From Marinomonas pollencensis (lineage in GTDB: Bacteria > Pseudomonadota > Gammaproteobacteria > Pseudomonadales > Marinomonadaceae), in the NCBI RefSeq assembly GCF_003387375.1, contig NZ_QUNG01000004.1, positions 124,001 through 188,000 on the forward strand: 64,000 nt of DNA, read 5' to 3'. Position 1 is the first letter of the stretch. Every line of letters begins with the position of its first letter. A model generated the notes under the pieces. The model saw nothing but the letters and a program-made list of their open reading frames with translations, ran no database searches and was not told the DNA's origin. The position numbers and the translations under genes were made by a program. This document shows positions 29,639-48,708 of this stretch, piece by piece.

Positions 29639-31159
29639 TCATTCTTCTTGAGCGCAGGTGTAAGTCTGAACTAAACCATCTTTGCCCCAAGACTCCAATC
29701 GCACCTCGAAGCCCCACAGCCTGCGGAAATGTTTCATAACCTCAACTGTGTCTTCATTAAGAGGCCGATCTCCATCCATGATATGGCGCAGCACCAGGCT
29801 TCTGTCTTCGTTAATATTGACCTTTTGTACCTGAATATTCGGCTCACGGTAACTTAAATTGTATTGCTGAGATAATCTCTCGCGGAGTTTTTGATAGCCC
29901 TCGTCATTGTGTATTTCTTTAATTTCTACAAATGGGTCGAGCACATCATTCTCCATGCCAAAGAAACGAAATTCGCGCATTAACTTGGGGGACAAATACT
30001 GCAAAATAAAACTTTCGTCTTTGAAATTTCGCATCGCAAAATCCAATACCTCAAGCCAATTTTTCCCTACTATGTCAGGAAACCAGCGACGATCTTCTTC
30101 TGTTGGATGTTCACACATGCGTTTAATATCAGAATACATCGCAAACCCTAATGCATAAGGGTTAATACCAGAATAGTAAGGCGAATCGAAACCTGGCTGA
30201 TACACGACACTGGTGTGTGATTGCAAAAATTCTAAGATAAAGCCGTCATTGACTAGCCCTTTATCGTACAAGGCGTTCATCAAGGTATAGTGCCAAAATG
30301 ACGCCCACCCTTCATTCATTACTTGCGTTTGTCGCTGTGGGTAAAAGTACTGCGCCATTTTACGGACGATACGGATCAATTCCCGTTGCCAAGGACGCAG
30401 TAAAGGCGCGTGTTTTTCCAAAAAGTAGAGCAAATTTTCCTGGGGTTCAGACGGAAAAATGCGTTCTTTACGTATGCTCTCTTCGTCCTTTCCCAGCACC
30501 GGAATAGTACGCCATAAATCATTTACCTGTTGCTGCAATGCCTGCTCTCGCTCCTCTTGTCGAGAGCGCTCTTCTTCGGCTGACAAAGGCACTGGGCGTT
30601 TATAGCGATCGACACCAAAATTCATCAACGCATGACAAGAATCTAACGTCAGCTCCACTTCTTCTATGCCATATTTTTCTTCGCATTCTTGTACATACTT
30701 TTTAGCAAACACAAGGTAATCTATAATCGCACTGGCGTCGGTCCAGGTTTTGAATAGGTAGTTTCCTTTAAAAAATGAGTTGTGCCCATAACACGCATGA
30801 GAGATGACGAGCGCCTGCATCATCATGTTGTTTTCTTCCATCAGGTAGGCAATACAAGGGGATGAATTAATCACAATTTCATACGCCAACCCCATGCGGC
30901 CGCGCTTGTAATTTTGCTCCACTTCGAGAAACTGTTTGCCATACGACCAGTGATGATAGCCCAATGGCATGCCGACAGACGCATAGGCGTCCATCATCTG
31001 CTCAGAGCTAATGATCTCAATTTGGTTGGGGTAAGTATCCAAGCCAAACTCTTTGGCAATTTTGTCTATTTCTTGCTCATACTTTTGAATCAATTCAAAA
31101 GACCACTCAGGCCCTTCTGACAAATATTGACGCTTCGCTTTACTGGCCGCTTGACTCAT
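29639..31159 (-). CDS. ycgB: SpoVR family protein YcgB
   Basis: A 506-residue SpoVR-like protein (E. coli YcgB has 510). The name comes from B. subtilis SpoVR, involved in spore cortex formation; in non-sporulating bacteria it belongs to the stationary-phase yeaG-yeaH-ycgB set, and its biochemistry is unknown. Conserved blocks are [68 protein letters not shown] and [15 protein letters not shown]. The start at 31159 has a perfect AAAGGAGG and lies inside the yeaH 3' end (21-base overlap), so translation is coupled. A longer open frame to 31270 is discounted. Confidence 0.94.
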
Positions 31160-32432
31160 TTTGCCTCCTTTGGAACAAGTCCCGGAAAACAGGGTAAATA
31201 TCGCCAACCTCGGTGATGTGTCGCATTGAGAAATATTTAGGGTGCGCACTTTGCACCTGTTCATAGGCATACCACAAACTTTGATGCTCTCTTGGAGTAA
31301 TTTCTATGTAAGTAAAGTACTGCACTTTATCGATGATATTGTCTTCTAAAATTTTACGACAAGTGGTCGAGTCATCGTCCCAGTTGTCGCCATCAGACGC
31401 CTGTGCCGTGTAGATATTCCAAGCATCTGATGGGTATCGATCGGCGATAATCTTATCCATTAAAGTCAGTGCACTGGAGACAATCGTGCCACCAGTTTCA
31501 CGGGAATAAAAAAACTCTTCTTCGCTCACTTCTTTAGCGCTGGTGTGATGCCGAATAAACACCACGTCTATTTTTTCGTAATTGCGACGCAAAAATAGGT
31601 ATAAAAGAATAAAAAACCGTTTAGCAATATTTTTAGTTTCTTGTGTCATTGAGCCAGACACATCCATCACGCAAAACATTACCGCTTGGCTGCTGGGTTT
31701 AGGTTCCTTTATATGGTGGTTATAACGTAAATCATACGTATCTAAAAATGGCGTTCGGTCAATCTTCTGCTTGAGCATTTCAATCTGCTCTTCGAGCGCG
31801 GTCACTTTCGCGCTGTCCCGTAACGCAAAATCCACCGCCATTAAACGAGCCATTTCGGCTTCTACTTCTTTCAGCTCACGTCTTGCACCGCCGTTCATCA
31901 CCATACGTCGCGCATACGCATTGCGCATAGAGCGAACTATGTTTAACTTAGACGGTGTTCCATCACTGACAATACCCGCATGCTTTAAAGAATACTCTTT
32001 GATCTCTTTGAGTTCTTTTTTCAGCAAATTTGGCAGCGCCAAATCTTCGAAAACGTAATCAAGAAACTCCTCTTGGGATATTTGGAAGACAAAATCGTCT
32101 TCCCCCTCTCCACTATCACTGGCGTCACCGTTACCACTTCCCCCAGCCGCGCCTCCACGGGGCTTAGGAATACGATCACCGGTCGAAAACTCTTTATTAC
32201 CAGGGTGTACAATAGACCCAGTTCCACCTTGACCATGGCCGAAAGTAGGCTCATGGATGTCTTTTTGAGGAATGGTTATTTTCTCACCTCGATCCAGATC
32301 TTTAATGCTACGTTCGTTTACCGCTTCCTCCACGGCCTTTCGAATATGCTCACGATAACGGCGCAAAAATCGCTGCCGATTTACACTGCTCTTATGCTTT
32401 CCGTTTAGGCGGCGGTCAATTATGTATGACAT
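31140..32432 (-). CDS. yeaH: DUF444 family protein YeaH
   Basis: A 430-residue protein of the YeaH/YhbH family (DUF444). The N-terminal part is basic and glycine-rich ([27 protein letters not shown], then a Gly/Asp-rich linker at about 90-115). A C-terminal von Willebrand A-like domain (about 245-425) has the metal-site motif [12 protein letters not shown] and [11 protein letters not shown]. It is encoded between yeaG and ycgB. The ATG at 32432 has AGGAGGTGGGT just upstream; the GTG at 32438 overlaps that ribosome site and is rejected. Confidence 0.94.
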
Positions 32433-32523
32433 ACCCACCTCCTTTCACTGATCAGACAGTACATCTTAGTCTTACGCATAAACACTACCCGCCTTTTCGC
32501 TGATACCACATCGACCTAACTTT

Positions 32524-34446
32524 CTATTGAGATTTACGGACGCGTAAGTACCACTCAGACAATAAACGAACTTGTTTTTCAGTATAGCCACGCTCTACCA
32601 TGCGTTTAACAAACTCATTATGTTTGTTTTTATCTTCACTGGACGATTTCGCACTGAATGAAATAACCGGTAATAGGTCTTCAGTATTGGAAAACATCTT
32701 ACGCTCGATCACCACTCTGAGTTTTTCATAGCTCAACCAACTTGGATTTTTACCATTGTTATTGGCTTTCGCCCTTAACACAAAGTTCACCACCTCATTA
32801 CGGAAGTCTTTAGGGTTACTAATACCCGCTGGTTTTTCGATTTTTTCCAACTCATCATTAATAGAAGAACGGTCTAAAATGTCACCGGTTTCTGGGTCAC
32901 GATATTCTTGATCCTGAATCCAGAAATCGGCATAAATAACATACCGATCAAAAATATTCTGACCGTACTCTGAATAAGACTCTAGGTAAGCGGTTTGGAT
33001 CTCCTTGCCGATAAATTCCACATAACGTGGTGCTAGGTATTCTTTTAAGGCACGTAAGTATCGGTCATGTCGATCCTGGTCAAATTGTTCTTGCTCAATT
33101 TGCTGTTCTAAGACATACATCAGATGCACCGGATTCGCGGCGACCTCTGTTGGATCAAAGTTAAACACTCGAGAAAGGATTTTAAAGGCGAATCGAGTCG
33201 ACAAGCCGTCCATCCCTTCATTCACTCCCGCTGCGTCTTTGTATTCTTGTAAAGATTTTGCTTTGGGGTCTATGTCTTTCAATGACTCCCCGTCGTAGAT
33301 GCGCATTTTAGAAAACAAACTGGAGTTTTCAGGTTCTTTGAGACGAGACAGAACCGAGAATTGCGCCAACATTTTTAGCGTATCTGGAGCACATGGGGAA
33401 TGCTGCAATGAACTGTGCTCAAGCAATTTTTGATAGATATGCATTTCTTCAGTAACACGCGTACAGTAAGGCACCTTGACGGTATACACACGGTCAATAA
33501 AGGCTTCGTTAGTTTTATTGTTCTTAAACGTTTGCCACTCAGACTCATTCGAGTGAGCGAGAATCAAACCGTCAAAAGGAATACCGCCCAGCCCTTCTGT
33601 ACCGTTATAGTTCCCTTCTTGCGTCGCAGTTAACAATGGGTGCAGCACCTTGATTGGTGCCTTAAACATTTCCACGAATTCCATAATACCGCGGTTACCA
33701 CGACATAAGCCGCCAGAATAGCTGTAAGCGTCGGCGTCATTTTGCTCAAAGTATTCCAATTTACGGATATCTACCTTACCTACCAAGGCTGAAATATCTT
33801 GGTTGTTTTCATCACCTGGTTCGGTTTTTGAAATCGCCACTTGATTAAGAGCAGATGGGTAAATTTTTACGACTTTAAACTCTTCAATGTTACCGTTGAA
33901 CTCTTTTAGCCGCTTAGTCGCCCAAGGTGACATCGCATTTTTCAAATAGCGCTTAGGAATCCCATATTCCTCTTGAAGAATGTCACCGTCTTCATTGACA
34001 TCAAATAAGGCAAGCGGCGACTCAAAGACTGGAGACCCCTTGATGGCGTAAAATGGTACCGATTGCATAAGCTCTTTTAATTTTTCTGCCAGGGACGATT
34101 TACCACCGCCTACAGGCCCTAGCAGGTACAAGACCTGTTTCGACTCCTCCAAACCTTGAGCAGCATGGGTCAAAAACGCCACAATGCGTTCAATGGCTTC
34201 TTCCATTCCGTAAAAATGTTCGAACGAAGGGTAACGTTTGATTAGTTTATTAGAAAAGATTCGACTCAACCGAGTATCGCGGGATGTGTCAATCACTTCA
34301 GGCTCACCAATCGCCATTAATAGACGTTCGGCTGAGGAAGCAAAAGCAGCAGAATCTTGTTTGCATAATGCGAGATACTCAGCGAGAGACATTTCTTCAT
34401 CTTTTTGAGCGTCATAGCGAGATTGGACATGGTCAAAAATACTCAT
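32524..34446 (-). CDS. yeaG: PrkA family serine protein kinase YeaG
   Basis: A 640-residue PrkA protein (E. coli YeaG has 644). An AAA-type N-terminal domain has the P-loop GPVGGGKSSLAEKLK (about residues 110-124) and an inserted arm. The C-terminal PrkA kinase-like domain follows (SWLSYEKLRVVIERKMFSNTEDLLPVISF). In E. coli YeaG is a Ser/Thr kinase made in nitrogen starvation and stationary phase. It is the promoter-proximal gene of yeaG-yeaH-ycgB on the minus strand, with a GAGAGGA ribosome site. The 91 bases to yeaH hold no strong terminator. Confidence 0.95.
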   Translation of the reverse strand: MSIFDHVQSRYDAQKDEEMSLAEYLALCKQDSAAFASSAERLLMAIGEPEVIDTSRDTRLSRIFSNKLIKRYPSFEHFYGMEEAIERIVAFLTHAAQGLEESKQVLYLLGPVGGGKSSLAEKLKELMQSVPFYAIKGSPVFESPLALFDVNEDGDILQEEYGIPKRYLKNAMSPWATKRLKEFNGNIEEFKVVKIYPSALNQVAISKTEPGDENNQDISALVGKVDIRKLEYFEQNDADAYSYSGGLCRGNRGIMEFVEMFKAPIKVLHPLLTATQEGNYNGTEGLGGIPFDGLILAHSNESEWQTFKNNKTNEAFIDRVYTVKVPYCTRVTEEMHIYQKLLEHSSLQHSPCAPDTLKMLAQFSVLSRLKEPENSSLFSKMRIYDGESLKDIDPKAKSLQEYKDAAGVNEGMDGLSTRFAFKILSRVFNFDPTEVAANPVHLMYVLEQQIEQEQFDQDRHDRYLRALKEYLAPRYVEFIGKEIQTAYLESYSEYGQNIFDRYVIYADFWIQDQEYRDPETGDILDRSSINDELEKIEKPAGISNPKDFRNEVVNFVLRAKANNNGKNPSWLSYEKLRVVIERKMFSNTEDLLPVISFSAKSSSEDKNKHNEFVKRMVERGYTEKQVRLLSEWYLRVRKSQ

Positions 34447-34865: not shown

Positions 34866-35474
34866 ATGCTGTTTCAATTTGATCAACTCAGCGGCACCGA
34901 CCGCTATCACTTGATCACCCAAACTGTCACCCCAAGACCGATAGCTTGGATCATGACTCGCAATGAAAATCAGACCTATAACCTTGCCCCCTTTTCTTTC
35001 TTTTCTGCGCTTTGCCCCGATCCAGCACTGCTCGTTGTCTCTATTGGCAATAAAAACGCCGAACAGCAAAAAGACACTAAACAAAACCTAATTCGTGAAC
35101 AGGAATGTGTTTTGCATATTCCCAGTGCAGAACTGGTTGAGGCAGTAAACCTCAGCGCCGCAACCTTAGCTTACGGAGAATCGGAATTAACCAGATCAAC
35201 ACTCTCGTTGACGACTTTCACCACACAGCTACCGCGCATTGCAGACGCCAAAGTTGCGATGCACTGCCGCCTCTATGACATGCATCCTATAGGCTCATCG
35301 TCATTCAGTGCCTGTTATTTGGAAATTTTAAGCTTACATGTCGACGACGACATTCTGCGACAAGAAAACGGGCGTAACCTTATCAACAGCGCCCAACTGA
35401 ACCCGCTAAGCCGTCTTGGTGGAAACGATTACGCACTTATTGGTCAAACACTGACGATCAAACGCCCTGAATAA
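34866..35474 (+). CDS. Flavin reductase-like domain protein
   Basis: A 202-residue FMN-binding split-barrel protein. Family blocks are RYHLITQTVTPRPIAWIMTRNENQTYNLAPFSFFSALCPDPALLVVSIG (about 13-60), the core of the flavin-reductase-like domain, and ENGRNLINSAQLNPLSRLGGNDYALIG at the C-terminus. Such proteins reduce flavin for a monooxygenase or act as FMN enzymes themselves; no partner monooxygenase is next to it. It ends 26 bases before the large multidomain gene, so the two are probably one operon. Confidence 0.85.
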   Translation: MLFQFDQLSGTDRYHLITQTVTPRPIAWIMTRNENQTYNLAPFSFFSALCPDPALLVVSIGNKNAEQQKDTKQNLIREQECVLHIPSAELVEAVNLSAATLAYGESELTRSTLSLTTFTTQLPRIADAKVAMHCRLYDMHPIGSSSFSACYLEILSLHVDDDILRQENGRNLINSAQLNPLSRLGGNDYALIGQTLTIKRPE

Positions 35475-35500: not shown

Positions 35501-38116
35501 ATGGACATAACTGAACAGATACAAGCCATGCCTTTTATGGCTGATATCAGCAAAGACATGCACACCTCATTGCTTGATATTGCGAGCATAAGAAAGCTCA
35601 ACTCTGGCGAGTTACTGGCTAAGCAGTTTGAAATAGGTCACTCTTTGTATTTTATATTAACCGGAGAAATTGCCATTTCTATCCCTCTCCGAGAACAAGG
35701 AAAGTCCTACAATGTTGGCTTAATCAGTGAAAAATACACACCGATTGGCTGGTCCGCGTTCCGCCACCCATCACGCTATGCGACAACCTTTCAAGCGACA
35801 AAATCGTCCACGGTACTGGCGCTGCCAATCGTCGCATTGCAAAAACTTTTAGACAGCGATATTGATTTCGCCAATACCTTCTTGCGCTTTATCTACGAGC
35901 AATCTCTGCCCGTACTGACAAGCATTCACAACCAAACGCGTCCGTTTTTTTCTAATGAGTCCTTGGCCTTCGAAGAAACCCGCCCGTTTATCAACCCAGA
36001 CCAACAAACACAGTCACTAAAAGAGTCCTCTGCGTTACTGAATTACGCGCCATTTTGTGAGACCTTCACCCAAACAGAAATCCATGCCTTAGCCAAACAA
36101 TCTTCTATCTTATTGGCCCACCAAGGGGACATTATTTCTCAACAAGATCAGTATCCTGATGGCCTGTATTTTCTGATCAAAGGCAAAGCGGTCATTAGTT
36201 ACCAAACTGATACCGGCGATATTATTACCACCCGCTCCATTTCCCGCGCCGGGACTTTGTTAGTCTGGTGTACTCCGGGCAATGAGCTCAAAAACAGAAC
36301 GTCTATTATTTCTTCCCGAGACAGCAGTATTTTGTTTATCCCAAAAGAAAAACTTTTGTCTCTGTTTGAAAGCATGCCAAAACTGGCGGTCAAATATTTA
36401 CACCGTTTGATCTGGCTCGTCGGCACTCACCTACTCGCTGCACGCATGCGCTACTTATCTCAAATCGCCAACGACGAAGTATTGGCGGTCAGCAATGTGA
36501 TTGAACAAAACGCCGCGGTATTACCCGTCAGTTCACCTCTTTATAAAGTCAGTGAGCTACTCAAAAGTGCGATCACCACCGCCTCTGCCTTTGGTGTTCT
36601 GTATAAATGCCTACATTTCGGTAGCGTATTAGAAAGAACCATCGCAGGTATGTGCCTGGATATATTAAAAGATTTGCAACGTGAAAATGCCTTCTATCGT
36701 CACTTGCAAAAAGCCTATGACAACATCAACAGCTTACCTAAAGACACCCCTGCGTTGGATGTCAGACGCTTTGGCACCGAACAGTTTAAACTCGCTTTTC
36801 AACAAGTGCCTTACGTTATTAAAGGACTAGAAAATCTGCCCAAAAAAGCCGGCAGTCTATTTATTTACAACCACCTGTTAGGGTCGCCGACAAATCGCCT
36901 GCCGAATGGATTTCGTTTCTCTATCGATGCGCAATTCATTAGCGCCATGATTATCGACAACGAATACGGTATTTCAGGTCAGCGTATTGTTCGCCGCAGT
37001 GATGAAAATGAATTCTGGCGTGACGATTACTATGAGCGTTTTGGCAATGTCTTTGTAGATAGCTGGGAAAACCTATGTAAAGGCACCCCAGAATACGCAC
37101 AGTTCATTCAGCAGTCACAAGACACATTAAGAGAGAACTACCCATTAATGATCTCCCCCGAGGGCATGAGCTATGGCACCCATCAGTCGCCTGGTGCCTT
37201 TTTGCCTCACGCGTTTGAATTAGCGGGGTCCATGGGCAGCGACGAACCTTGGATTGTGCCTCTAGCCGTGGCTAACTTTGACCGTCGAGCTGATCATAAT
37301 ATCTATACAGTGGTTATCAAGCCGGCATTCAAATTGTCTGATCGGGTGGATATCCAAGACCCGAAAGCGGTTGCGCACTTCTTAGCTGAATACCAAGAAG
37401 AGTATCGTGGCTATGTCAACGAAGCCGTTGAGCTTGCGCGAGAAATCCGCCAGTACCCTATCCTCAGTGGACGTGCGGGTTACCGTTCGAATGTCTTGGG
37501 ATTAAACCAACTGGATGTCGAGTTTGAATCCGACGTCCGCGAGCTTGAATTCCGCACTGCACATCAGGTTTATAAAGACCGTCCAGTGGCATTTTATGGC
37601 TCTTCTACTATGCGTTTATGGCATGATTTTGATGAGCATTTTCACCCTAAAGAAGCCATTAATCTCGGTTTTGGAGGCGCGACATTAGAAGCTTGCGTTT
37701 ACTATTTTGAACGGATTATCTTGCCTCATAACCCTCGCTCTTTGGTCATTTATGCAGGCGACAATGACATCGGAAATCACTGTGATTGCAATAAGGTCAC
37801 TGAGCTTTATATCGAGCTGCTGCAAAAAATCGATCGTTATTTACCGGGTATTCCTGTGATGCTGTTAAGCATTAAATGTAGCCCTGCACGACGTGCCATG
37901 CGCAGCACTATAGAAAAAGCCAATGCGCAACTTGAGCGCTTGGCGAAAACACGACCTAATACCCGCTACCTAGATCTATTTGCCAACCTACTGGACTCAC
38001 AAGGTGACATTAAAGACACTCTTTTTGAAGGGGATAAACTGCACCTAAATAGTAAAGCTTACGACATTTGGACTAAGCAGCTAAATCAACAAAAAACGTT
38101 CATTTTTGGCTCATAG
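35501..38116 (+). CDS. Multidomain protein: two cNMP-binding domains, acyltransferase-like region, SGNH hydrolase
   Basis: An 871-residue protein of unusual architecture. Residues about 10-130 and 185-305 are two cyclic-nucleotide-binding-type domains (GHSLYFILTGEIAIS; PDGLYFLIKGKAVISYQTDTG). Residues about 430-650 look like a glycerolipid acyltransferase (PlsC-type) fold, with YNHLLGSPTN (N457, H458) in place of the NHxxxxD motif and ISPEGMSYG (P553, E554, G555) like the FPEG motif. Residues about 690-865 are a clear SGNH/GDSL hydrolase: S701 in YGSSTMRLW, the GFGGA glycine block, N755 in AGDNDIG, and D845/H848 in GDKLHLN. There is no signal peptide. I infer a cytosolic, nucleotide-controlled lipid-modifying enzyme. 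It is probably co-transcribed with the flavin reductase gene. Confidence 0.75.
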   Translation: MDITEQIQAMPFMADISKDMHTSLLDIASIRKLNSGELLAKQFEIGHSLYFILTGEIAISIPLREQGKSYNVGLISEKYTPIGWSAFRHPSRYATTFQATKSSTVLALPIVALQKLLDSDIDFANTFLRFIYEQSLPVLTSIHNQTRPFFSNESLAFEETRPFINPDQQTQSLKESSALLNYAPFCETFTQTEIHALAKQSSILLAHQGDIISQQDQYPDGLYFLIKGKAVISYQTDTGDIITTRSISRAGTLLVWCTPGNELKNRTSIISSRDSSILFIPKEKLLSLFESMPKLAVKYLHRLIWLVGTHLLAARMRYLSQIANDEVLAVSNVIEQNAAVLPVSSPLYKVSELLKSAITTASAFGVLYKCLHFGSVLERTIAGMCLDILKDLQRENAFYRHLQKAYDNINSLPKDTPALDVRRFGTEQFKLAFQQVPYVIKGLENLPKKAGSLFIYNHLLGSPTNRLPNGFRFSIDAQFISAMIIDNEYGISGQRIVRRSDENEFWRDDYYERFGNVFVDSWENLCKGTPEYAQFIQQSQDTLRENYPLMISPEGMSYGTHQSPGAFLPHAFELAGSMGSDEPWIVPLAVANFDRRADHNIYTVVIKPAFKLSDRVDIQDPKAVAHFLAEYQEEYRGYVNEAVELAREIRQYPILSGRAGYRSNVLGLNQLDVEFESDVRELEFRTAHQVYKDRPVAFYGSSTMRLWHDFDEHFHPKEAINLGFGGATLEACVYYFERIILPHNPRSLVIYAGDNDIGNHCDCNKVTELYIELLQKIDRYLPGIPVMLLSIKCSPARRAMRSTIEKANAQLERLAKTRPNTRYLDLFANLLDSQGDIKDTLFEGDKLHLNSKAYDIWTKQLNQQKTFIFGS

Positions 38117-40078: not shown

Positions 40079-40200
40079 TACTCAGAAAAAGGCACTTTTC
40101 GTCATCAAATATTGCTAAAGTATCTGCTTAGGAAAAGGGGTTCCCCTAGACACTGAACCAAGATAACGTCGATTACATGATGTATTGCAAGGAGAGTTGG

Positions 40201-40884
40201 ATGGCTAAAGTACACTTTGTTGGTGGTGAAAAAGGCGGTGTTGGAAAATCCATGACCGCACGTGTGTTAGCTCAATATTACATTGATCACGAACGTCCTT
40301 TTATTGGCTTCGATTGTGATTCTTCCCATGGGACTTTTTCACGTTTTTATCAAGACTACTCTTCACCGATTATTATGGGTGAGGAAGACAGCCTAGATGG
40401 CATGTTAGCCGCTATTGAAGCCTACCCTGAAAGAGATCTCATTATTGACCTAGCCGCACAAGCTGCCCAGCCACTTGGCGTCTGGATTGAAGAAACCGAC
40501 GTTTTTGGTCTGCTCGATGAACTGGGCTATCAAGTCTGTTTATGGCATGTCATGGACGATGGGGCAGACTCAGTCCAATTACTTGAGCAATTACTGGAAC
40601 GCTATCAGCAGCCTTCTGTGGACTTTATTGTGCTACAAAATTTAGGCAGAGGAACAGACTTCACCCGCTTCAGAAAATCCGATGGCTATCAAACAGCCCT
40701 AAAAAGGGACGCTTTGATCCTAGAACTGGCCAAGCTGCAAACCAAGCTAACACAAAAAATTGACTTTAATAACAGCAGCTTTTGGTCAGTGGCTAATGAT
40801 CGCAGCATCATGAACATTGCAGAGCGTCAGCGCATGAAAGTCTGGCTACGCAAAGTCTATGAGGAGTTCAATAAAATCGGCTAA
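40201..40884 (+). CDS. Orphan ParA/MinD-type P-loop ATPase
   Basis: A 227-residue SIMIBI-class ATPase. It starts MAKVHFVGGEKGGVGKSMTARV with the deviant Walker A motif KGGVGKS at 11-17, followed by FIGFDCDSSHGTFSRFY as the switch I-like block and a DLIIDLAAQAAQPLG segment as the Walker B/switch II-like block. The rest does not match ParA, MinD or NifH closely; it recalls mobilisation or cargo-positioning ATPases. No ParB or other partner is adjacent. The start at 40201 has AAGGAGAG upstream; the frame is open to 40177. It is flanked by two terminators, so it is monocistronic. Confidence 0.8.
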   Translation: MAKVHFVGGEKGGVGKSMTARVLAQYYIDHERPFIGFDCDSSHGTFSRFYQDYSSPIIMGEEDSLDGMLAAIEAYPERDLIIDLAAQAAQPLGVWIEETDVFGLLDELGYQVCLWHVMDDGADSVQLLEQLLERYQQPSVDFIVLQNLGRGTDFTRFRKSDGYQTALKRDALILELAKLQTKLTQKIDFNNSSFWSVANDRSIMNIAERQRMKVWLRKVYEEFNKIG

Positions 40885-42123: not shown

Positions 42124-43131
42124 CTAGTCTTGGTTAAACTTAGGGATAATATGACGGCCATATTGCGCAATAATTTCTTCTTCATCGCCACTGTCTAAGT
42201 AGATATTAAACTGCGTCGTCCCCGCTTCTTCAAGGGCTTTGATTCTGCCAATATGATCTTCCACCGTACCGAGAACACAAAAGCTTTTTACAATGTCTTC
42301 GCTGATAAAGTCTAAGAATGGATTATCGCTTTGTCCGTGCTTTGAATAATCATAGCCTCGACGCTTTTCAATATAATCGGTTAAGCTTTTTGGCACCAAT
42401 CCAGAGTCATTACCGTATTTTTCAACGATATCTGCCACATGATTCCCGACCATAGCGGGGAACCATTTGGTGTGTTCAATACAGTAATCCATGTCGCCAA
42501 AATAGGCTGGGGCAGCGGCCTGTACTTTGAAATTCGACATGTCTCGACCTGCTTCTTTTCCCGCACTAAGCGCTTGGTCCTTAAACCATTTAACCAAGTC
42601 TGGGTCACCAATTTGCAAAATCAAACCGTCGCCAACCTGACCGGCTGTGGCCAAGGCTTTAGGACCGTATGCGCCAATCCAGACTGGTAAATCATAGCCC
42701 GTTGCCCAAGGCAGTTTGACCGGTTCTGGGCATTCGCCATACTCGACTTCTTCACCACGAACCATGGCCTTTACCTTGGTGGTAAATTCAGCCAAGCGAG
42801 CTAAGGTGGCCGGCTTCTTGCCCATCACTCGCATGGAAGAATCCCCTCGCCCCAGTCCAATATCAAAACGACCATTACTTTGATGGGCCAAACTTGCGTA
42901 TAAGCTGGCCGACAATGACCAATCACGGATATTAGGATTGGTCACACAGGGGCCAAAACGCATGGTTTTGGTGTGTTCCATACACATGGCCATTGCTACA
43001 AAAGACTCGCGCCACAAAATGTGTGAATCGTAAAACCAGCAATAGTCGAAACCCGCCGCTTCCGCCTGACGAACCAGATTTCGTGCGCGATCTGGGCTAA
43101 CAAACCCTTTAAAAGTAATACCGAATTCCAT
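42124..43131 (-). CDS. F420-type LLM class oxidoreductase
   Basis: A 335-residue TIM-barrel protein of the luciferase-like monooxygenase (LLM) superfamily. It resembles the F420-dependent subgroup I recall as TIGR03842 (CPS_4043 type). Blocks are MEFGITFKGFVSPDRARNLVRQAEAAGFDYCWFYDSHILWR (1-41), HQSNGRFDIGLGRGDSSMRVMG (the cofactor phosphate-binding region), and PVWIGAYGPKALATAGQVGDGLIL. It is the last gene of the cofGHDCE-npdG operon, 107 bases after npdG, with AGAGGAA upstream. I infer that it uses F420H2 made by its neighbours; the substrate is unknown and may be a pyrimidine ring (see findings). Confidence 0.87.
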   Translation of the reverse strand: MEFGITFKGFVSPDRARNLVRQAEAAGFDYCWFYDSHILWRESFVAMAMCMEHTKTMRFGPCVTNPNIRDWSLSASLYASLAHQSNGRFDIGLGRGDSSMRVMGKKPATLARLAEFTTKVKAMVRGEEVEYGECPEPVKLPWATGYDLPVWIGAYGPKALATAGQVGDGLILQIGDPDLVKWFKDQALSAGKEAGRDMSNFKVQAAAPAYFGDMDYCIEHTKWFPAMVGNHVADIVEKYGNDSGLVPKSLTDYIEKRRGYDYSKHGQSDNPFLDFISEDIVKSFCVLGTVEDHIGRIKALEEAGTTQFNIYLDSGDEEEIIAQYGRHIIPKFNQD

Positions 43132-43238
43132 GATGTGTTCCTCTTATGCTTTTTTAATCGTTTTTTAGCGCTGACTTTTTCGTTCTGAATGACCCCTTGT
43201 GCCCCTGGCGGCGCAGCGAATTGCCGCCCTAGATGGCG

Positions 43239-43928
43239 TTAATGCTCAGGCGGGCAAATAGCAATACCGGCGTGACTGAAAGGCACATCCTTTGAGATAT
43301 TCAAGCGAATCAAAATGGGGGTAATGGCTTCTATACAACGGGCACTTTCTGCTAAGCCTGCGTTGTAGGCCTTGGTGCCCATGGACTCTATCAGCCCAAT
43401 AACAGATTTTTTCGACGCCAAATCATTACCACAAACCAAAATGTCGCAATTAATCGGACGCGATAAATCGTTCAAGGTAATAGCAGACACATTGTGCAGT
43501 GCCCCGACCACGGGAATCGACTCGCCCAATACTATTTGCGCGTGTTCAGTTACCGAGCCAGCGGCAGGCATCTCAACGGCCTTCGGATTACCAGGCGCTA
43601 ATGGCACCACAATATCCACTAAAATTTTTCCCGCTAACAAGGGCTTGAGTGCATCCAAAGTGGCATCATGGGCGCTGTAAGGCACAGACAAGATAACCAT
43701 ACTGTCTGCTGCCTGGGTGGCGGCTTCCATGGATAATCCTGTAATCTCAGCTTGGACGCCACGCTCTGCCAACTGGGCCGTTAACGTTTGGGCCACTTGT
43801 TGCGCTTTAGCAGCGTCACGGGAGCCTAATATTACTTGGGTTCCAGCCATCGCGAGACGCAATGCCAGACCTTTCCCCTGGGGGCCTGTACCACCAATAA
43901 TGGCGACTTTTTCATTCTCTGTGCTCAT
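43239..43928 (-). CDS. npdG: NADPH-dependent F420 reductase
   Basis: A 229-residue Rossmann-fold protein of the F420:NADPH oxidoreductase family (Fno/NpdG). The dinucleotide-binding motif is [21 protein letters not shown] (9-29). [13 protein letters not shown] follows, where the Ser-Arg after strand 2 favours [16 protein letters not shown] and [15 protein letters not shown] are later family blocks. It moves hydride between NADPH and F420, so it would supply F420H2 to the LLM enzyme. It lies 42 bases after cofE. A GC-rich stem (GGCGGC 43207-43212, GCCGCC 43223-43228) lies in the gap to the LLM gene. Confidence 0.92.
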
Positions 43929-43970
43929 GCTCTTTCCCTTTTCTTAAAGCCGTCTAAATGGGCCTTTTTG

Positions 43971-44744
43971 TTATTTAAAAAGATCTTCGCTTTGCGCCCG
44001 AATAAGATCCTGGCTGCTGCTCTGAGTAATCGGCCAATCAAGGCCACGAAACACAATGACCGGGGCTTTCGCGCTTTTCTCCATTAATAAACCAGACGCC
44101 GCGGCCAACTCATCAGCAAACGCAGGCGCCGTGACACTTAATGGGCGACCAAACGCATCCAACTCACCTTCCATCTTCATCACCGCTGGCACATTAGCCA
44201 GTCCAATGGCCACATTGGTTTGACCTAATCGCCATGGGCGACCAAAGGTATCGCTGATGACAATGCCGATTTCACAGGAAAAGTGGCGGCTAAGACGCTG
44301 ACACAGCCTTTGCGCACTAAGGTCTGGATCTTCCGGCAGTAAAATCAGTTGCCCAGGGTGATCCGCATTGGATTCATCTACGGCAGCATTGGCACAGACA
44401 TAGCCATTTTTGTGCTCTGCAATCAGCACACCTTCTTGCTGATCTGGGCGTTTAACCGCACGCACAATACGCTTGGATTGGGATAAGATAACCTCCACTT
44501 TACGAGCATCTTTATTGACGGTTTTAGCTAACGCCAAGGCATCCGCACTGGGAGTCACTTGAGCTAAGTCGATACAAGCCCCTTCGCTTTTTGACACCAC
44601 TTTATGGGCAATCACTAAAATATCACCGGCCTTTAATACTTTATCCTGCGCTTCCAAAGTGCAGATAATAGAGCCAGCCAAGTCATCCCCTTGTTGGAAA
44701 TCTGGCAAGCCTTCAAGGCGAAACATGGTCATAGAATCAGGCAT
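43971..44744 (-). CDS. cofE: Coenzyme F420-0:L-glutamate ligase
   Basis: GTP-dependent ligase that adds gamma-linked glutamates to F420-0. The 257-residue protein shows CofE blocks: DILVIAHKVVSKSEGACIDL (about 41-60), PDQQEGVLIAEHKNGYVCANAAVDESNA, CEIGIVISDTFGRPWRLGQTNVAIG and GRPLSVTAPAFADELAAASGLLMEKS. It is the stand-alone form: the second (FMN reductase) domain of actinobacterial FbiB is absent. The start at 44744 overlaps the cofC end by 8 bases and has AGGAGCG upstream. Confidence 0.94.
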   Translation of the reverse strand: MPDSMTMFRLEGLPDFQQGDDLAGSIICTLEAQDKVLKAGDILVIAHKVVSKSEGACIDLAQVTPSADALALAKTVNKDARKVEVILSQSKRIVRAVKRPDQQEGVLIAEHKNGYVCANAAVDESNADHPGQLILLPEDPDLSAQRLCQRLSRHFSCEIGIVISDTFGRPWRLGQTNVAIGLANVPAVMKMEGELDAFGRPLSVTAPAFADELAAASGLLMEKSAKAPVIVFRGLDWPITQSSSQDLIRAQSEDLFK

Positions 44745-45396
44745 ATTGGCGCTCCTTTACTGGCCATTTTCGAGTCGTTTCACACCATGGCAAAAAATGC
44801 TCAGCTTGTTGTGTAATGGCCCTATCAAGGTCCTCCCCTTGGTCAATATCTTGTGCTAAATGAGGCAATCTCAGCTGACAAAAAGACAAACCTTGGCGCT
44901 TAGCCGCTTGGGCATGTTGTGCCGCCGAATGGAGACCATAATGAAAACCAATGGCATCAGGTGGAGAACTGACAAGAGCATTGGTGCCTCCATCTTTGGC
45001 TTGTGCAATGACCACTTGCTGTTGTGTGGCGACGGCAAATAGCAGATCAAATTCTTGTTTATCTAACAAAGAAATATCACTTGGCACTATCACCTGATGA
45101 GTAAAGCCTGCTTTTTTTACCCATTGGCATGCCTGCCATAACGCCTCATTTAACCCCTCCTTTCCCTCTTCTCGCAGACCGTGAGCTCCGTAGGACTTAG
45201 CTAATGACAAGACAACACAGGACTGACTGATCACCACGACCTGATGTTGCGGAAAATGCTGCTGAAAAAACGCCAGAGTATTGGCATACAAACTGACCGC
45301 CAATTGCTGTCGCTCGCTCGCCGACAAACATCCCGCCAAACGCTGCTTGGCACAACTGGGAGATTTCATCGGGATCACAATACATAAGTGCGTCAT
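44737..45396 (-). CDS. cofC: CofC-type phospho-acid guanylyltransferase of F420 synthesis
   Basis: Nucleotidyltransferase that activates the three-carbon acid (2-phospholactate in archaea, PEP in mycobacteria, 3-phosphoglycerate in some proteobacteria) with GTP. From the ATG at 45396 it has 219 residues. It starts CIVIPMKSPSCAKQRLAGCLSASERQQLA, the GTP-binding strand and loop, and later has DGGTNALVSSPPDAIGFHYG, the family acceptor-binding signature. Which acid it uses cannot be read. The ATG overlaps the cofD stop (TAATG), and the frame open to 45459 is inside cofD and unsupported. Confidence 0.92.
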   Translation of the reverse strand: MTHLCIVIPMKSPSCAKQRLAGCLSASERQQLAVSLYANTLAFFQQHFPQHQVVVISQSCVVLSLAKSYGAHGLREEGKEGLNEALWQACQWVKKAGFTHQVIVPSDISLLDKQEFDLLFAVATQQQVVIAQAKDGGTNALVSSPPDAIGFHYGLHSAAQHAQAAKRQGLSFCQLRLPHLAQDIDQGEDLDRAITQQAEHFLPWCETTRKWPVKERQYA

Positions 45397-46355
45397 TAAG
45401 CGGCCCTCTGCTTGCGGCGTTGCTGAGCGAAATCCACCGCTCTGGTTAATAAGGCGCATTTGTCTTCACGGGTTTTCATTAGCGTCGGCGTGACCAACAC
45501 ATCCAGCCCCTGATCATGCAACCAAGGCAGATCGCCACGATCTGCTTCATCAATCACCATGGCATCGAGAAAAGAGGAGTAACCTTGATAAATACCTTTC
45601 GAATCGGTGCTAAGGCCCATGCTAGCCAACATTTTATCCGCAGGCCCTTTAACCGTTTTACCTGCAATTAAAGGCGAAATAGCCAGCACATAAGCATTAC
45701 TGTTTTCAATCGCTTGCTGGATCCCTGGGGTTGCTAATATGGCGCCTATACTTACTATTGGGTTACTTGGCGCAATGATAATCAGGTCACTTTTTGCGAT
45801 CTGAAACAGCGCTTCTGAGGTTGCTCGGGCAATATTTGCCCCCTTGTAGTCCACTTCTAACACTTCAGGTTTGCATTGCTCGCGGACGAAATATTGCTGA
45901 AAAGACAACCACCCAGAAGGGGTATTTACTTGTGTTTGCACCACATCATCGGTGGGCAATAAAATCGGCAAGCTCGCCCCGTAACGTTTGGCTAAACGCT
46001 GCACAATATGGCTGGCTCGCACCCCTTGCTTACGTAACTCAGTGCGATAAATATGAGTGGCAAGGTCAAGATCCCCCAGCGTCATCCAAGTATCTTGGCC
46101 GAGTAAGGATAACTCCTCTAATAAGCGATAAGACTCGTTTTTACGCCCCCAACCTCGCTCCCTATCTATCTGATTACCTAGGGAGTAAATTAAGGTATCT
46201 ATGTCTGGTGAAACCCATAACCCATGGAATTCTTCGTCATCGGCAATATTCCCAATCACCTGGGTGTTGGCAGCATAAATACTGGCAGCGAGCCCCTCTG
46301 CAGCCTTTGCACCGCCCACACCACCGGCGAGCAAAGTAATGGTCAAATCAGACAT
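45396..46355 (-). CDS. cofD: CofD-type phospho-acid transferase, F420-0 synthesis
   Basis: Joins the GDP-activated acid to the deazaflavin Fo, giving F420-0. The 319-residue protein carries LLAGGVGGAKAAEGLA (9-24) at the N-terminus, NIADDEEFHGLWVSPDIDTLIYSLGN (36-61, the family NTGDDFELHGLxISPDLDT type block) and IAPSNPIVSIGAILATPGI. It corresponds to FbiA of actinobacteria. Its ATG overlaps the cofH stop by one base and its stop overlaps the cofC start. Confidence 0.95.
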   Translation of the reverse strand: MSDLTITLLAGGVGGAKAAEGLAASIYAANTQVIGNIADDEEFHGLWVSPDIDTLIYSLGNQIDRERGWGRKNESYRLLEELSLLGQDTWMTLGDLDLATHIYRTELRKQGVRASHIVQRLAKRYGASLPILLPTDDVVQTQVNTPSGWLSFQQYFVREQCKPEVLEVDYKGANIARATSEALFQIAKSDLIIIAPSNPIVSIGAILATPGIQQAIENSNAYVLAISPLIAGKTVKGPADKMLASMGLSTDSKGIYQGYSSFLDAMVIDEADRGDLPWLHDQGLDVLVTPTLMKTREDKCALLTRAVDFAQQRRKQRAA

Positions 46356-47569
46356 TAGGCGACTCCTTGAATAGGGATACGCTGCAAACCAGACGTCTCT
46401 AATGCAAAGTGTGCAATGGGGTCATAGAAGGTATTTCGCTGGATCGCCTGCAACCCAGCAGAATGAATGTTGGCGACCATATCCGCTGGCATCACCTCTT
46501 GTCCGTGGGTGGCGCCAGCGGCACGGGAAATGCTCTCATTCATCAGAGTACCACCAAGATCATTGGCGCCAGAGCGCAACATTTTAGCCGCCACGTCAGG
46601 CCCCATCTTGACCCAAGATGCCTGAATATTATCAATATGACCTTGCAGCATTAGCCGTGCAATGGCGTGCATTTTAAAGTGTTCATCTCGGGTTGGACCG
46701 GGACGCACTTGCTCTGGGTTATCGTTATACAAACGGGTTTCATAATGGATAAAACCCAATGGTACAAACTCAGTAAAACCGCCGGTTTCTTTTTGGATAT
46801 CTCGCAATAATTTAAGGTGGTTTGCCCAATGAATCGGCTGATCCACATGGCCATACATAATGGTCGAGGTAGTTTTAACACCTACCGAGTGAGCGGCTTT
46901 TACAATGCGTACCCACTCTTCTGTGGTGAGCTTATTTTTGGTCAATTGCTTGCGGATCTCGGTGTCCAAAATCTCTGCCGCTGTGCCTGGCATAGAGCCA
47001 AGGCCCAATGCTTTTAACTCCGCTAGAAATACCTCGGGGGTAAGGCGTGCTTTTTTACAGCCGTACCAGATTTCAAAAGGGGAAAAGGCATGAATATGAA
47101 TTTCAGGCACCCGTTTTTTCACCGCAACAATCAGGTCGCGGTAATAATCCGCATCAATATCTGGGTGCAAACCACCTTGAATACACACTTCTGTAGCACC
47201 ACGCTCCCAGGCTTCTTGTGCCCTGTCTGCCACTTGCTCAACGCTTAAAAACTCTGCCTCTTTATCACCCTTTTGCTTAGCAAAATTACAAAATCGACAG
47301 CCCATATAGCACACATTGGTAAAATTAATATTGCGCGTAATAACATAGCTTCCGGTATTGCCAACCCGTTGCTGTCGCACTTGATCCGCCGTGTCTAACA
47401 CAGCTTGGGCTTCACTTCCTTGGGTTGCAAACAACACACAAGCATCAGCGACTGACAATTCCTCACCTTGCAAGCATTGCGCTAAAATCCGTTCTACTGG
47501 TGTACTGATCGTGTGGTCAATAAAAGTCGATTGACGCATATCTTGATGACTAGGCTGGATAGGATTCAT
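46355..47569 (-). CDS. cofH: Fo synthase subunit 2: ribityl-diaminouracil-tyrosine hydroxyphenyl transferase
   Basis: Radical-SAM enzyme that joins the hydroxybenzyl part of tyrosine to 5-amino-6-ribitylaminouracil. The 404-residue protein has the cluster motif C87-YMG-C91-RF-C94 (NVCYMGCRFCNF), followed by GATEVCIQGGLHPD, the family signature, and MYGHVDQPIHWANHL and ETGGFTEFVPLGFIHYET. It is separate from CofG, as in archaea and cyanobacteria, not fused as in actinobacterial FbiC. ATGA overlap with cofG (4 bases) shows coupled translation. Confidence 0.95.
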   Translation of the reverse strand: MNPIQPSHQDMRQSTFIDHTISTPVERILAQCLQGEELSVADACVLFATQGSEAQAVLDTADQVRQQRVGNTGSYVITRNINFTNVCYMGCRFCNFAKQKGDKEAEFLSVEQVADRAQEAWERGATEVCIQGGLHPDIDADYYRDLIVAVKKRVPEIHIHAFSPFEIWYGCKKARLTPEVFLAELKALGLGSMPGTAAEILDTEIRKQLTKNKLTTEEWVRIVKAAHSVGVKTTSTIMYGHVDQPIHWANHLKLLRDIQKETGGFTEFVPLGFIHYETRLYNDNPEQVRPGPTRDEHFKMHAIARLMLQGHIDNIQASWVKMGPDVAAKMLRSGANDLGGTLMNESISRAAGATHGQEVMPADMVANIHSAGLQAIQRNTFYDPIAHFALETSGLQRIPIQGVA

Positions 47570-48708
47570 GCTAGAACACCTCCTGACTGATGCGATTTAG
47601 GGTAAGCCGATTGCCCAGCTAATAACGCCACTCGATGGGCAAGATCCGGAGTAAGATACGTCTCTTGTTGCTGATAAAAACGATCATAAATCGTTAATCT
47701 CTCAGCCAATGAATAACCTAAACCTTGGCAGGCTTGCGCGACGCTGCTGATTTGTGGCCAGGCTCGTTCTGGGTTAATAAAATCTTTAGTTAGGGGGGAT
47801 ATTCCACCAAAATCATTAATACCGGCGTTGATATAACAACCGTATTCCTGCTCTAAATTAGGCGGGGCTTGAATACTAATTTGCGCAGGCAACAGCAAAC
47901 GAGCAACCGCAATAGTGCGTTTCATATCTTCTAAATCTGGCTCTTGATAAGCCGCCATTAAGGTGCCTTCTTTGGCACGAAAGTTCTGAATGATAACTTC
48001 TTGAATATGCCCATAGGTCAGATGGCGTTCTCGAATTGCCAGCAAGCTATGAATGCGATCTTGCCAGCTTTCTCCGATGCCGATGAGGAGGCCTGTGGTA
48101 AAAGCGATGTCCAATTTTCCCGCTTGCTCAATCGTATCAAGACGGCGTTTTGGCGTTTTATCGGGGCAGGCATAATGGGCCTGTCCCTTCTTCAGTAAAT
48201 CATTGGAGACAGTTTCCAGCATCATTCCCATGCTCGCCGCAACCGGCTTAAGCTGTTTTAGCTCAGCAAAAGACAAGGCGCCCGCATTCACATGGGGTAA
48301 CAATGATGTATTCAAAAGCACGTTCTCACATTGATCATGCAGATAATCTAATGTGCTGCGGTAGCCTAAATTATTGAGTAACTCACGGGCTTTTTGATGC
48401 CTCTCTTCTGGCCGCTCTCCTAAACTAAACAAGGCTTCCTTGCACGCTAACTGCTGTCCCTCATAAGCGGTTTTGAACACTTCTGCTGGGGACATGTAAT
48501 TCGCATAAGGAGAATCAGGCCCCTGCACAAAGGTGCAATAGCCACAGGCATCTCGGCACATATTGGTCAGGGGGATAAACACTTTTTTCGAATAAGTTAA
48601 CTGTTTCCCCCAGTGTGCATCGCGTATTTTCGCCGCTTGCTGACAAAGAGCATATAAGTCTGGTCCAGTAACAAACTCATAAGAAATAGCTTCAGAAACA
48701 GAGATCAT
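47566..48708 (-). CDS. cofG: Fo synthase subunit 1: 7,8-didemethyl-8-hydroxy-5-deazariboflavin synthase
   Basis: Radical-SAM enzyme that closes the deazaflavin ring after CofH. The 380-residue protein carries the cluster motif C51-RDA-C55-GY-C58 (NMCRDACGYCTF), FSLGERPEERHQ, and GINDFGGISPLTKDFINPERAWP near the end, a CofG block. It is the first gene of the operon cofG-cofH-cofD-cofC-cofE-npdG-LLM. GGGAGT lies 6 bases before the ATG, and an operator-like dyad sits 33-48 bases upstream, where it would overlap a promoter. Confidence 0.95.
   Translation of the reverse strand: MISVSEAISYEFVTGPDLYALCQQAAKIRDAHWGKQLTYSKKVFIPLTNMCRDACGYCTFVQGPDSPYANYMSPAEVFKTAYEGQQLACKEALFSLGERPEERHQKARELLNNLGYRSTLDYLHDQCENVLLNTSLLPHVNAGALSFAELKQLKPVAASMGMMLETVSNDLLKKGQAHYACPDKTPKRRLDTIEQAGKLDIAFTTGLLIGIGESWQDRIHSLLAIRERHLTYGHIQEVIIQNFRAKEGTLMAAYQEPDLEDMKRTIAVARLLLPAQISIQAPPNLEQEYGCYINAGINDFGGISPLTKDFINPERAWPQISSVAQACQGLGYSLAERLTIYDRFYQQQETYLTPDLAHRVALLAGQSAYPKSHQSGGVLA

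Follow-up and report, generated by a model that had tools for sequence, protein, structure and literature searches.

A four-part protein of Marinomonas with two CNB-like domains, a PlsC/GPAT-like acyltransferase domain and an SGNH hydrolase domain: a candidate acyl-remodelling enzyme

Introduction

Could a single bacterial polypeptide both add and remove acyl chains under the control of a nucleotide or metabolite? The question is raised by a gene of Marinomonas pollencensis on the 64,000-nucleotide stretch analysed here (contig NZ_QUNG01000004.1, positions 124,001 to 188,000), referred to below as the window, whose product was described in an original prediction, made from the letters of the window, as a four-part protein with two cNMP-binding domains, an acyltransferase-like middle and an SGNH hydrolase. 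The open reading frame (ORF) is intact, spans exactly positions 35501-38116 of the plus strand and codes for a Marinomonas protein of 871 residues; the opposite strand of this stretch is stop-rich in the frame read. The protein is a real, conserved combination of known parts for which no description was found in the papers searched, in keeping with the earlier statement that no function had been described. The reading favoured here, to which a probability of roughly 45% is assigned, is that of a soluble, probably membrane-peripheral, allosterically gated enzyme that remodels acyl groups.

Domain architecture and conservation

Pfam assignments and AlphaFold model matches bear out the four-part composition. 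In the whole protein, the cNMP_binding family is matched by two stretches (61.6 bits; cut-off of 27.5) and Lipase_GDSL_2 at residues 706-856 (53.5 bits; cut-off of 32.9), and Acyltransferase (PF01553) is matched at residues 441-589 with 11.7 bits, under the cut-off of 23. Modelling of the two regions on whose folds the original prediction was staked did not speak against it: an acyltransferase fold was predicted for the middle (residues 330-665, modelled with 27 sequences; pLDDT 92.9, pTM 0.88), and tandem CNB domains were predicted for the N-terminus (Foldseek, full-length model). The full-length model (pLDDT 79.4) was matched in VIA-align by SGNH structures, which fill the matches listed together with one PlsC row (5kym, Z 17.3); no CNB structure is among those matches, and the CNB fold is therefore taken from Foldseek and Pfam.

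Conservation was assessed in 48 unique full-length Marinomonas-group proteins from 68 of 69 loci, a set that includes the window's own protein and a paralogue (L021) and excludes a frame-shifted copy (L065). All of the residues named beforehand, namely N457-H458, P553-E554-G555, S701, the glycine block N721-G723, N755, D845, and H848, are present and conserved. The C-terminal SGNH block is complete, as had been proposed: S701, N721, G723, D845, and H848 are found in 48 of 48 proteins and N755 in 47 (a serine in L057), and the C-terminus of the full-length model resembles sialate O-acetylesterase (7pzg, Z 23.9) and a PAF-acetylhydrolase-like protein (2hsj, Z 23.8). Sequence and model thus support the four domains and the conservation of their catalytic residues.

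A conserved pairing of acyltransferase and esterase

Relatives outside the genus bear on whether the two catalytic domains belong together. A search of 293 genomes of the order with a profile of the middle domain recovered 13 genomes of the genus, among them that of the window, and a single weak match elsewhere; searches of the class (369 genomes) and of the phylum (398 genomes) gave strong matches outside the genus in G557, G657, G664, G689, and G692. Further strong matches were found in the family of G557 (4 of 11 genomes) and in the order of G664 (15 of 99), bringing the number of genomes with strong matches outside the genus to 22, of which 21 contributed loci to the analysis. Weak matches in G262, G456, and G1022 were not taken as members; the stretch from G456 (L102) had no match to unfused proteins at 1e-6. 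Where uncut and uninterrupted, the open frames of the outside relatives are 665-730 residues long. They carry two CNB stretches and the acyltransferase domain by Pfam (two scanned), in the same order in the 10 that were aligned, and a search of 36 stretches with the SGNH domain of the window gave no matches.

In 20 of the 21 loci, an AXE1 esterase gene adjoins or sits near the CNB-CNB-acyltransferase gene. These 20, from three families, comprise G557, G1035, G1036, and G1038 (family f174), 14 genomes of f187, and G689 and G692 (f247); in G692 the AXE1 gene is one gene away. In the remaining locus (G657), the gene begins where the contig ends, and its other flank shows no AXE1. The AXE1 identity refers to PF05448, with four neighbours tested. 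All 18 f174 and f187 loci have the two genes in divergent orientation; in both f247 loci the genes converge. A search of the 99 genomes of one order with the AXE1 protein recovered exactly the 15 genomes that match the acyltransferase profile, at a limit of 1e-30 for AXE1 (1e-3, the default, for the profile), so that weaker AXE1 homologues in the other 84 genomes are unlisted. Within that order, 13 of 19 species of one genus carry both genes and the other six carry neither. The naive probability of such co-occurrence, with kinship ignored, is 4.6e-18 for the 99 genomes and 3.7e-5 for the single genus. As a side observation, gene pieces are present in G1084, which lies outside the 21 loci, and an AXE1 match on its contig C73 is about 1.2 kb from the middle-domain match.

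No AXE1 match was found in the 39 Marinomonas-group loci, and the weak AXE1-like matches present genome-wide in 4 of 25 genomes of the genus are not near the gene. In a tree of the acyltransferase domain, one branch (support 100/99) separates 12 fused from 15 unfused forms, with L098 grouped among the unfused, AXE1-neighbour forms although its upstream flank is not visible. Since the gene that lacks SGNH is paired with AXE1, the esterase is provided in trans in the relatives and in cis here, and two esterases of unrelated fold seem to take the same partner role. This pairing has good support and suggests that acyl transfer and acyl cutting are done by a matched pair. The original proposal that acyl chains are both added and removed thereby gains indirect support from the 20 of 21 loci and the shared 15 of 99 genomes; the two activities themselves are predicted from sequence. 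Whether transferase and esterase act in a cycle, in sequence or as a relay is not decided by the pairing.

The most credible alternative to the favoured reading, although unlikely, is a sequential route without cycling, in which the esterase strips a short, acetyl-like acyl group and the exposed hydroxyl is then acylated, the two enzymes forming a biosynthetic pair. Sialate O-acetylesterase and PAF acetylhydrolase are among the structures closest to the SGNH domain and, like the AXE1 partner in trans, are reminiscent of short-acyl esterases; however, no pathway gene is common to the 18 loci compared. Next in credibility, and also unlikely, is an acyl relay by analogy with AT3-SGNH proteins, in which SGNH or AXE1 would make the final acyl transfer and the acyltransferase domain would load or feed it. 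AT3-SGNH fusions are reported to require both domains, with SGNH making the last transfer (PMC7448272). The constant pairing of transferase and esterase would suit such a relay, but AT3 is an unrelated membrane domain, whereas the protein studied here has no transmembrane-like stretch and both of its catalytic sets are complete; moreover, a specific relay interface would be hard to reconcile with the different fold of the AXE1 partner.

The acyltransferase domain and its block I

The claim that the middle 220 or so residues are acyltransferase-like, with NH (457-458) and PEG (553-555) motifs, holds: N457, H458, P553, E554, and G555 occur in all 48 Marinomonas-group proteins, and a PlsC fold is predicted. 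The middle model matches PlsC (5kym; Z 18.9 over 222 residues, root-mean-square deviation of 4.0) and GPAT (1k30; Z 14.0) in VIA-align, from which the PlsC match came, the two Foldseek matches below 1e-3 both being to GPAT. In PDB sequence searches, the middle profile found no acyltransferase before distant relatives were added and found PlsC weakly afterwards (E 0.0073). A transglutaminase-like chain (9y6s_8G) was also a weak match in the sequence searches and was not used.

The family alignment comprises 27 sequences, including that of the window; the other 26 are 29-88% identical to the window domain. All 27 match PF01553 at an E value of 0.1 or lower (best 3.3e-12), and two relatives scanned whole exceed the cut-off (L097 with 26.5 bits and L100 with 38.9 bits). 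Because all members match, two relatives pass the cut-off and the model matches PlsC with Z 18.9, sequence and model comparisons indicate that the weak match of the window protein is not a product of chance. In a HMMER alignment of low score, H458 and PEG 553-555 fall on the NH and PEG of PlsC, and a downstream proline (P587) is conserved as in PlsC and GPAT.

Canonical LPLAT enzymes carry an HX4D motif in block I. Here, block I reads N-H-L-x7-L-x8-D-x2-F, that is H-x17-D, in 27 of 27 sequences, and HX4D occurs at that place in none; N457, H458, D476, F479, R495, and P-E-G are invariant in all 27. This spacing, along with a tryptophan in the first CNB domain discussed below, goes beyond what the original prediction noticed. 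In the middle model, the helix after the NH strand (146-160) has D476 as its second residue, a position which we take to be close to the usual site of the catalytic aspartate of block I. The model would thus be consistent with a 13-residue insert in the block I loop that leaves a His-Asp dyad in place. It is quite unlikely, on balance, that the insert breaks block I and leaves a catalytically dead or altered domain as a lipid-binding scaffold for the esterase. The absence of HX4D and the PF01553 score of the window domain would agree with a dead domain, yet none of the 27 sequences deviates at N, H, D476, F479, or PEG (identity to the window domain is 29-88% in the other 26), and D476 is near what we take to be the usual place of the HX4D aspartate.

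The genome of the window contains six other PF01553 matches above cut-off, and a role as the sole housekeeping PlsC was rejected on these grounds. By pattern search, the usual HX4D is present in two of these proteins (L140 and L142) and has Glu in place of Asp in L141; no HX4D-type motif was found in L144 or L145, and the search of L143 hit a neighbouring ORF of L141.

The CNB-like domains as a putative sensor

The presence of a cNMP-binding pattern in two N-terminal domains was confirmed by the Pfam matches and by Foldseek, where the full-length model matched PKA regulatory subunits (5kbf, E 2.7e-13, with a TM-score of 0.36 by target length). Residues 83-95 of the first domain are likened here to the phosphate-binding cassette of CRP and PKA, and Trp84 is assumed to occupy the place of the canonical Glu, which contacts the cyclic nucleotide together with the Arg. 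G83, S85, and R92 are conserved in 48 of 48 proteins, and the presumed Glu position is occupied by Trp in 47 and by Ile in one. The second CNB domain has no such cassette in Marinomonas; in the unfused relatives, GWS or GWT occurs there in 7 of 10 aligned proteins and not in the three of f174. Among NCBIfam models, the CNB domains resemble that of family 2B encapsulin (NF041163), far under the cut-off. The CNB domain of family 2B encapsulin is reported to bind no cyclic nucleotide (PMC12407261).

Because Trp replaces the cassette Glu in nearly all proteins, binding of cAMP or cGMP by the sensor appears doubtful, and this replacement, the degenerate second cassette and the likeness to encapsulin 2B together make a different ligand more likely, as far as can be told from sequence. 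Of the proposed nucleotide or metabolite control, the nucleotide part is thus weakened. Least probable of the alternatives is that the CNB domains are true cAMP or cGMP sensors that regulate the enzyme by analogy with mycobacterial Pat, a reading to which the Foldseek matches to PKA and PKG regulatory domains, PF00027 scores above cut-off and the match of the first CNB domain of one relative (L120) to NF058543, 'acetyltransferase Pat' (57.3 bits; cut-off of 460), lend some weight, and against which stand the Trp or Ile at the presumed Glu position and the likeness, far below cut-off, to the encapsulin domain reported not to bind cyclic nucleotides.

A tentative mechanism of acyl remodelling

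In the mechanism favoured here, the PlsC/GPAT-like domain, with H458, D476, and PEG 553-555, would take an acyl group from acyl-ACP or acyl-CoA and attach it to a hydroxyl of an acceptor that is a lipid or resembles one. The SGNH domain, with S701, N755, and D845-H848, would cleave an ester in the same molecule or in a precursor. One chain would then edit acyl groups, with transferase and esterase acting on one substrate pool, and in relatives without SGNH the neighbouring AXE1 enzyme would be the esterase partner. The two CNB-like domains would answer to a ligand that is probably other than a canonical cyclic nucleotide, or could form an autoinhibitory lid. The activities, the shared substrate and the gating of the four-part protein are what we infer from its domains and partners.

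Several observations weigh against this reading. The relative placement of the domains is unsupported, the full-length model having a pTM of 0.51 and the PKA matches low TM-scores, of which that of the best match is given above. The window domain scores 14.5 bits against the PF01553 cut-off of 23 and is without HX4D. The scoring of co-occurrence ignores relatedness, and linkage speaks for shared function rather than opposed action, given that the esterase step could precede the transfer, follow it or be the transfer itself. A stress-related context would draw on the neighbouring yeaG, which lies within 5 kb in just 17 of the 39 Marinomonas-group loci (one a partial match), in only two of the four f174 loci (in L119, of only 3.2 kb, it was not found); it was not found in any f187 or f247 locus.

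A broader and more tentative proposal is that these proteins represent an undescribed family of ligand-gated acyl-cycling enzymes, in which an HX17D acyltransferase would be coupled to an esterase for the same substrate (AXE1 in trans, replaced by the fused SGNH domain in Marinomonas) and the signal sensed by the tandem CNB domains, from starvation or the membrane, would not be a cyclic nucleotide. If true, a single chain or a constant gene pair would add and remove acyl groups under allosteric control, with esterase folds swapped, and would provide a clear case in which to test futile-cycle or editing logic in the acylation of bacterial lipids or metabolites. It would also add a block I spacing new to the PlsC fold and point to a novel ligand for CNB domains of this type.

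Relation to known systems

PlsC and plastidial GPAT (LPLAT superfamily, PF01553) have the same fold, the NH and PEG motifs and the conserved proline in common with the middle domain; they differ from it in having HX4D where H-x17-D is found here, and the domain studied here is fused to CNB and SGNH domains. The SGNH/GDSL hydrolases 7pzg, 2hsj, and 1wab share the fold (Z of about 23-24) and the Ser, Gly, Asn, and Asp-x-x-His residues, whereas the SGNH domain of the four-part protein is appended to an acyltransferase without a transmembrane-like or signal-like stretch. Mycobacterial Pat (of the Rv0998 type) likewise has a CNB domain fused to an acyl-group transferase; it is, however, a GNAT protein acetyltransferase rather than an LPLAT, and is not known to carry an esterase. 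The AT3 domain of AT3-SGNH proteins is an unrelated, integral membrane domain, and these proteins are not known to have CNB domains. No multi-span AT3 domain was detected in the four-part protein, where no 19-residue window exceeds a hydropathy of 1.36 and where AT3 is not among the five Pfam families listed.

The AT3-SGNH O-acetyltransferases OafA and OafB also combine an acyltransferase and SGNH in one chain (PMC7448272). Neuropathy target esterase (PNPLA6) similarly joins CNB-like domains to a lipid esterase, and no evidence that it binds cAMP directly is reported (PMC6995513); it differs in its patatin catalytic domain, its three CNB domains, its transmembrane anchor and the lack of an acyltransferase. 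In family 2B encapsulin, the CNB domain of similar sequence (NF041163, below cut-off) is inserted in a shell protein, unlike that of the four-part protein, and is reported to bind no cyclic nucleotide (PMC12407261).

Distribution in Marinomonas

The gene is a core gene of the genus, being present at near full length and 57-100% identity in 35 of 35 genomes, own included. Scanning the named genome collection yielded 44 loci. Of these, 39 contain the whole or almost the whole gene (38 with Marinomonas and one with Maribrevibacterium harenarium in the title), and five (L071-L075), in which only the SGNH part is matched, were not kept as members. Further searches added little (known genomes were found again in 2 of 3, 1 of 5, and 2 of 48), and none of 32 pattern-matching stretches from viral contigs encodes a relative of the protein. 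The best 19-residue hydropathy window scores 1.36, hence no stretch is transmembrane-like, and none is signal-like.

In one Marinomonas genome (G010), the whole four-part protein is encoded twice; near the second copy (L021:5967-8594, 33% identical) a two-component system seems to be present, as judged by eye. The copies in L099 (G664), L132 (G1095), and L065 are broken by a stop or frame change, caused by decay or by sequencing error; the AXE1 neighbours of the interrupted copies in L099 and L132 are open frames of 343 and 339 codons. A stand-alone SGNH protein from another family of the order (L031:4827-5549, G037) is 31% identical to the fused SGNH domain, and its N-terminus resembles a membrane anchor by eye.

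Genomic neighbourhood

The coordinates of the gene, its domains and its upstream neighbours are collected in Table 1.

Table 1. Features of the four-part gene and of its upstream neighbours, in positions of the window
Feature	Positions	Strand	Basis
Coding sequence, 871 residues, CNB-CNB-helical linker-PlsC/GPAT-like acyltransferase-SGNH hydrolase	35501..38116	+	ORF, Pfam, AlphaFold
CNB-like domain 1, residues ~1-145	35501..35935	+	PF00027; model matches PKA regulatory subunits
Phosphate-binding-cassette-like stretch, residues 83-95, Arg92 kept, Trp84 at presumed place of canonical Glu	35747..35785	+	Alignment
CNB-like domain 2, residues ~173-325, cassette degenerate in Marinomonas	36017..36475	+	Pfam, model, alignment
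Helical linker, residues ~326-433; last helices within the range aligned to the N-terminal part of PlsC	36476..36799	+	Models
PlsC/GPAT-like (LPLAT fold) domain, residues ~386-655	36656..37465	+	Model of 330-665; 5kym, 1k30
Block I, N457-H458-x17-D476	36869..36928	+	27/27; H458 aligned with NH of PlsC
Block III, P553-E554-G555	37157..37165	+	27/27; aligned with PEG of PlsC
SGNH hydrolase domain, residues ~671-871	37511..38113	+	PF13472; 7pzg, 2hsj
SGNH nucleophile S701	37601..37603	+	48/48
SGNH N755	37763..37765	+	47/48
SGNH D845-x-x-H848	38033..38044	+	48/48
Flavin-reductase-like gene	34866..35474	+	PF01613; ends 26 bases upstream of the coding sequence
yeaG (PrkA family)	32524..34446	-	NCBIfam PRK15455, 1242.8 bits
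yeaH-like gene	31140..32438	-	PRK05325 family
ycgB/SpoVR-family gene	29639..31270	-	PRK11767

The flavin-reductase-like gene, a homologue of which is found just upstream in 30 of the 39 Marinomonas-group loci, is probably co-transcribed with the four-part gene in the window. Further upstream and on the opposite strand are yeaG, yeaH, and ycgB/SpoVR, homologues of which stand in the same order beside the gene in two f174 loci (L097 and L117). Among ORFs of at least 130 codons, the gene groups that recur in at least four of the 18 compared loci, besides the gene itself and AXE1, are yeaG, yeaH, ycgB, and GGDEF-EAL, each in 4-6 loci. Since E. coli requires yeaG to adapt to nitrogen starvation (PMC4664914), the four-part protein may possibly have a stress or stationary-phase role.

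Downstream, a DapA-like gene (dapA named by eye) is present in 34 of the 39 loci and a GGDEF-EAL-type gene, with identity down to about 31%, in 14 (L045, L051-L055, L057-L059, L061, L062, L064, L067, and L068), two of the 39 (L041 and L048) being cut short on this side. A c-di-GMP link from the GGDEF-EAL neighbour to the sensor domains is possible; as a constant partner this gene was rejected, given its presence in 14 of 39 loci only. Elsewhere in the window, a ParA/TraL-like ATPase gene (40177-40884, plus strand) weakly matches a conjugal transfer model (66.9 bits; cut-off of 360), and its neighbours resemble dapA and a PEP-mutase-type gene by eye. The minus strand at 42124-48708 carries the coenzyme F420 genes cofG, cofH, cofD, cofC, cofE, and npdG as well as an F420-type oxidoreductase (TIGR03842), all above NCBIfam cut-offs.

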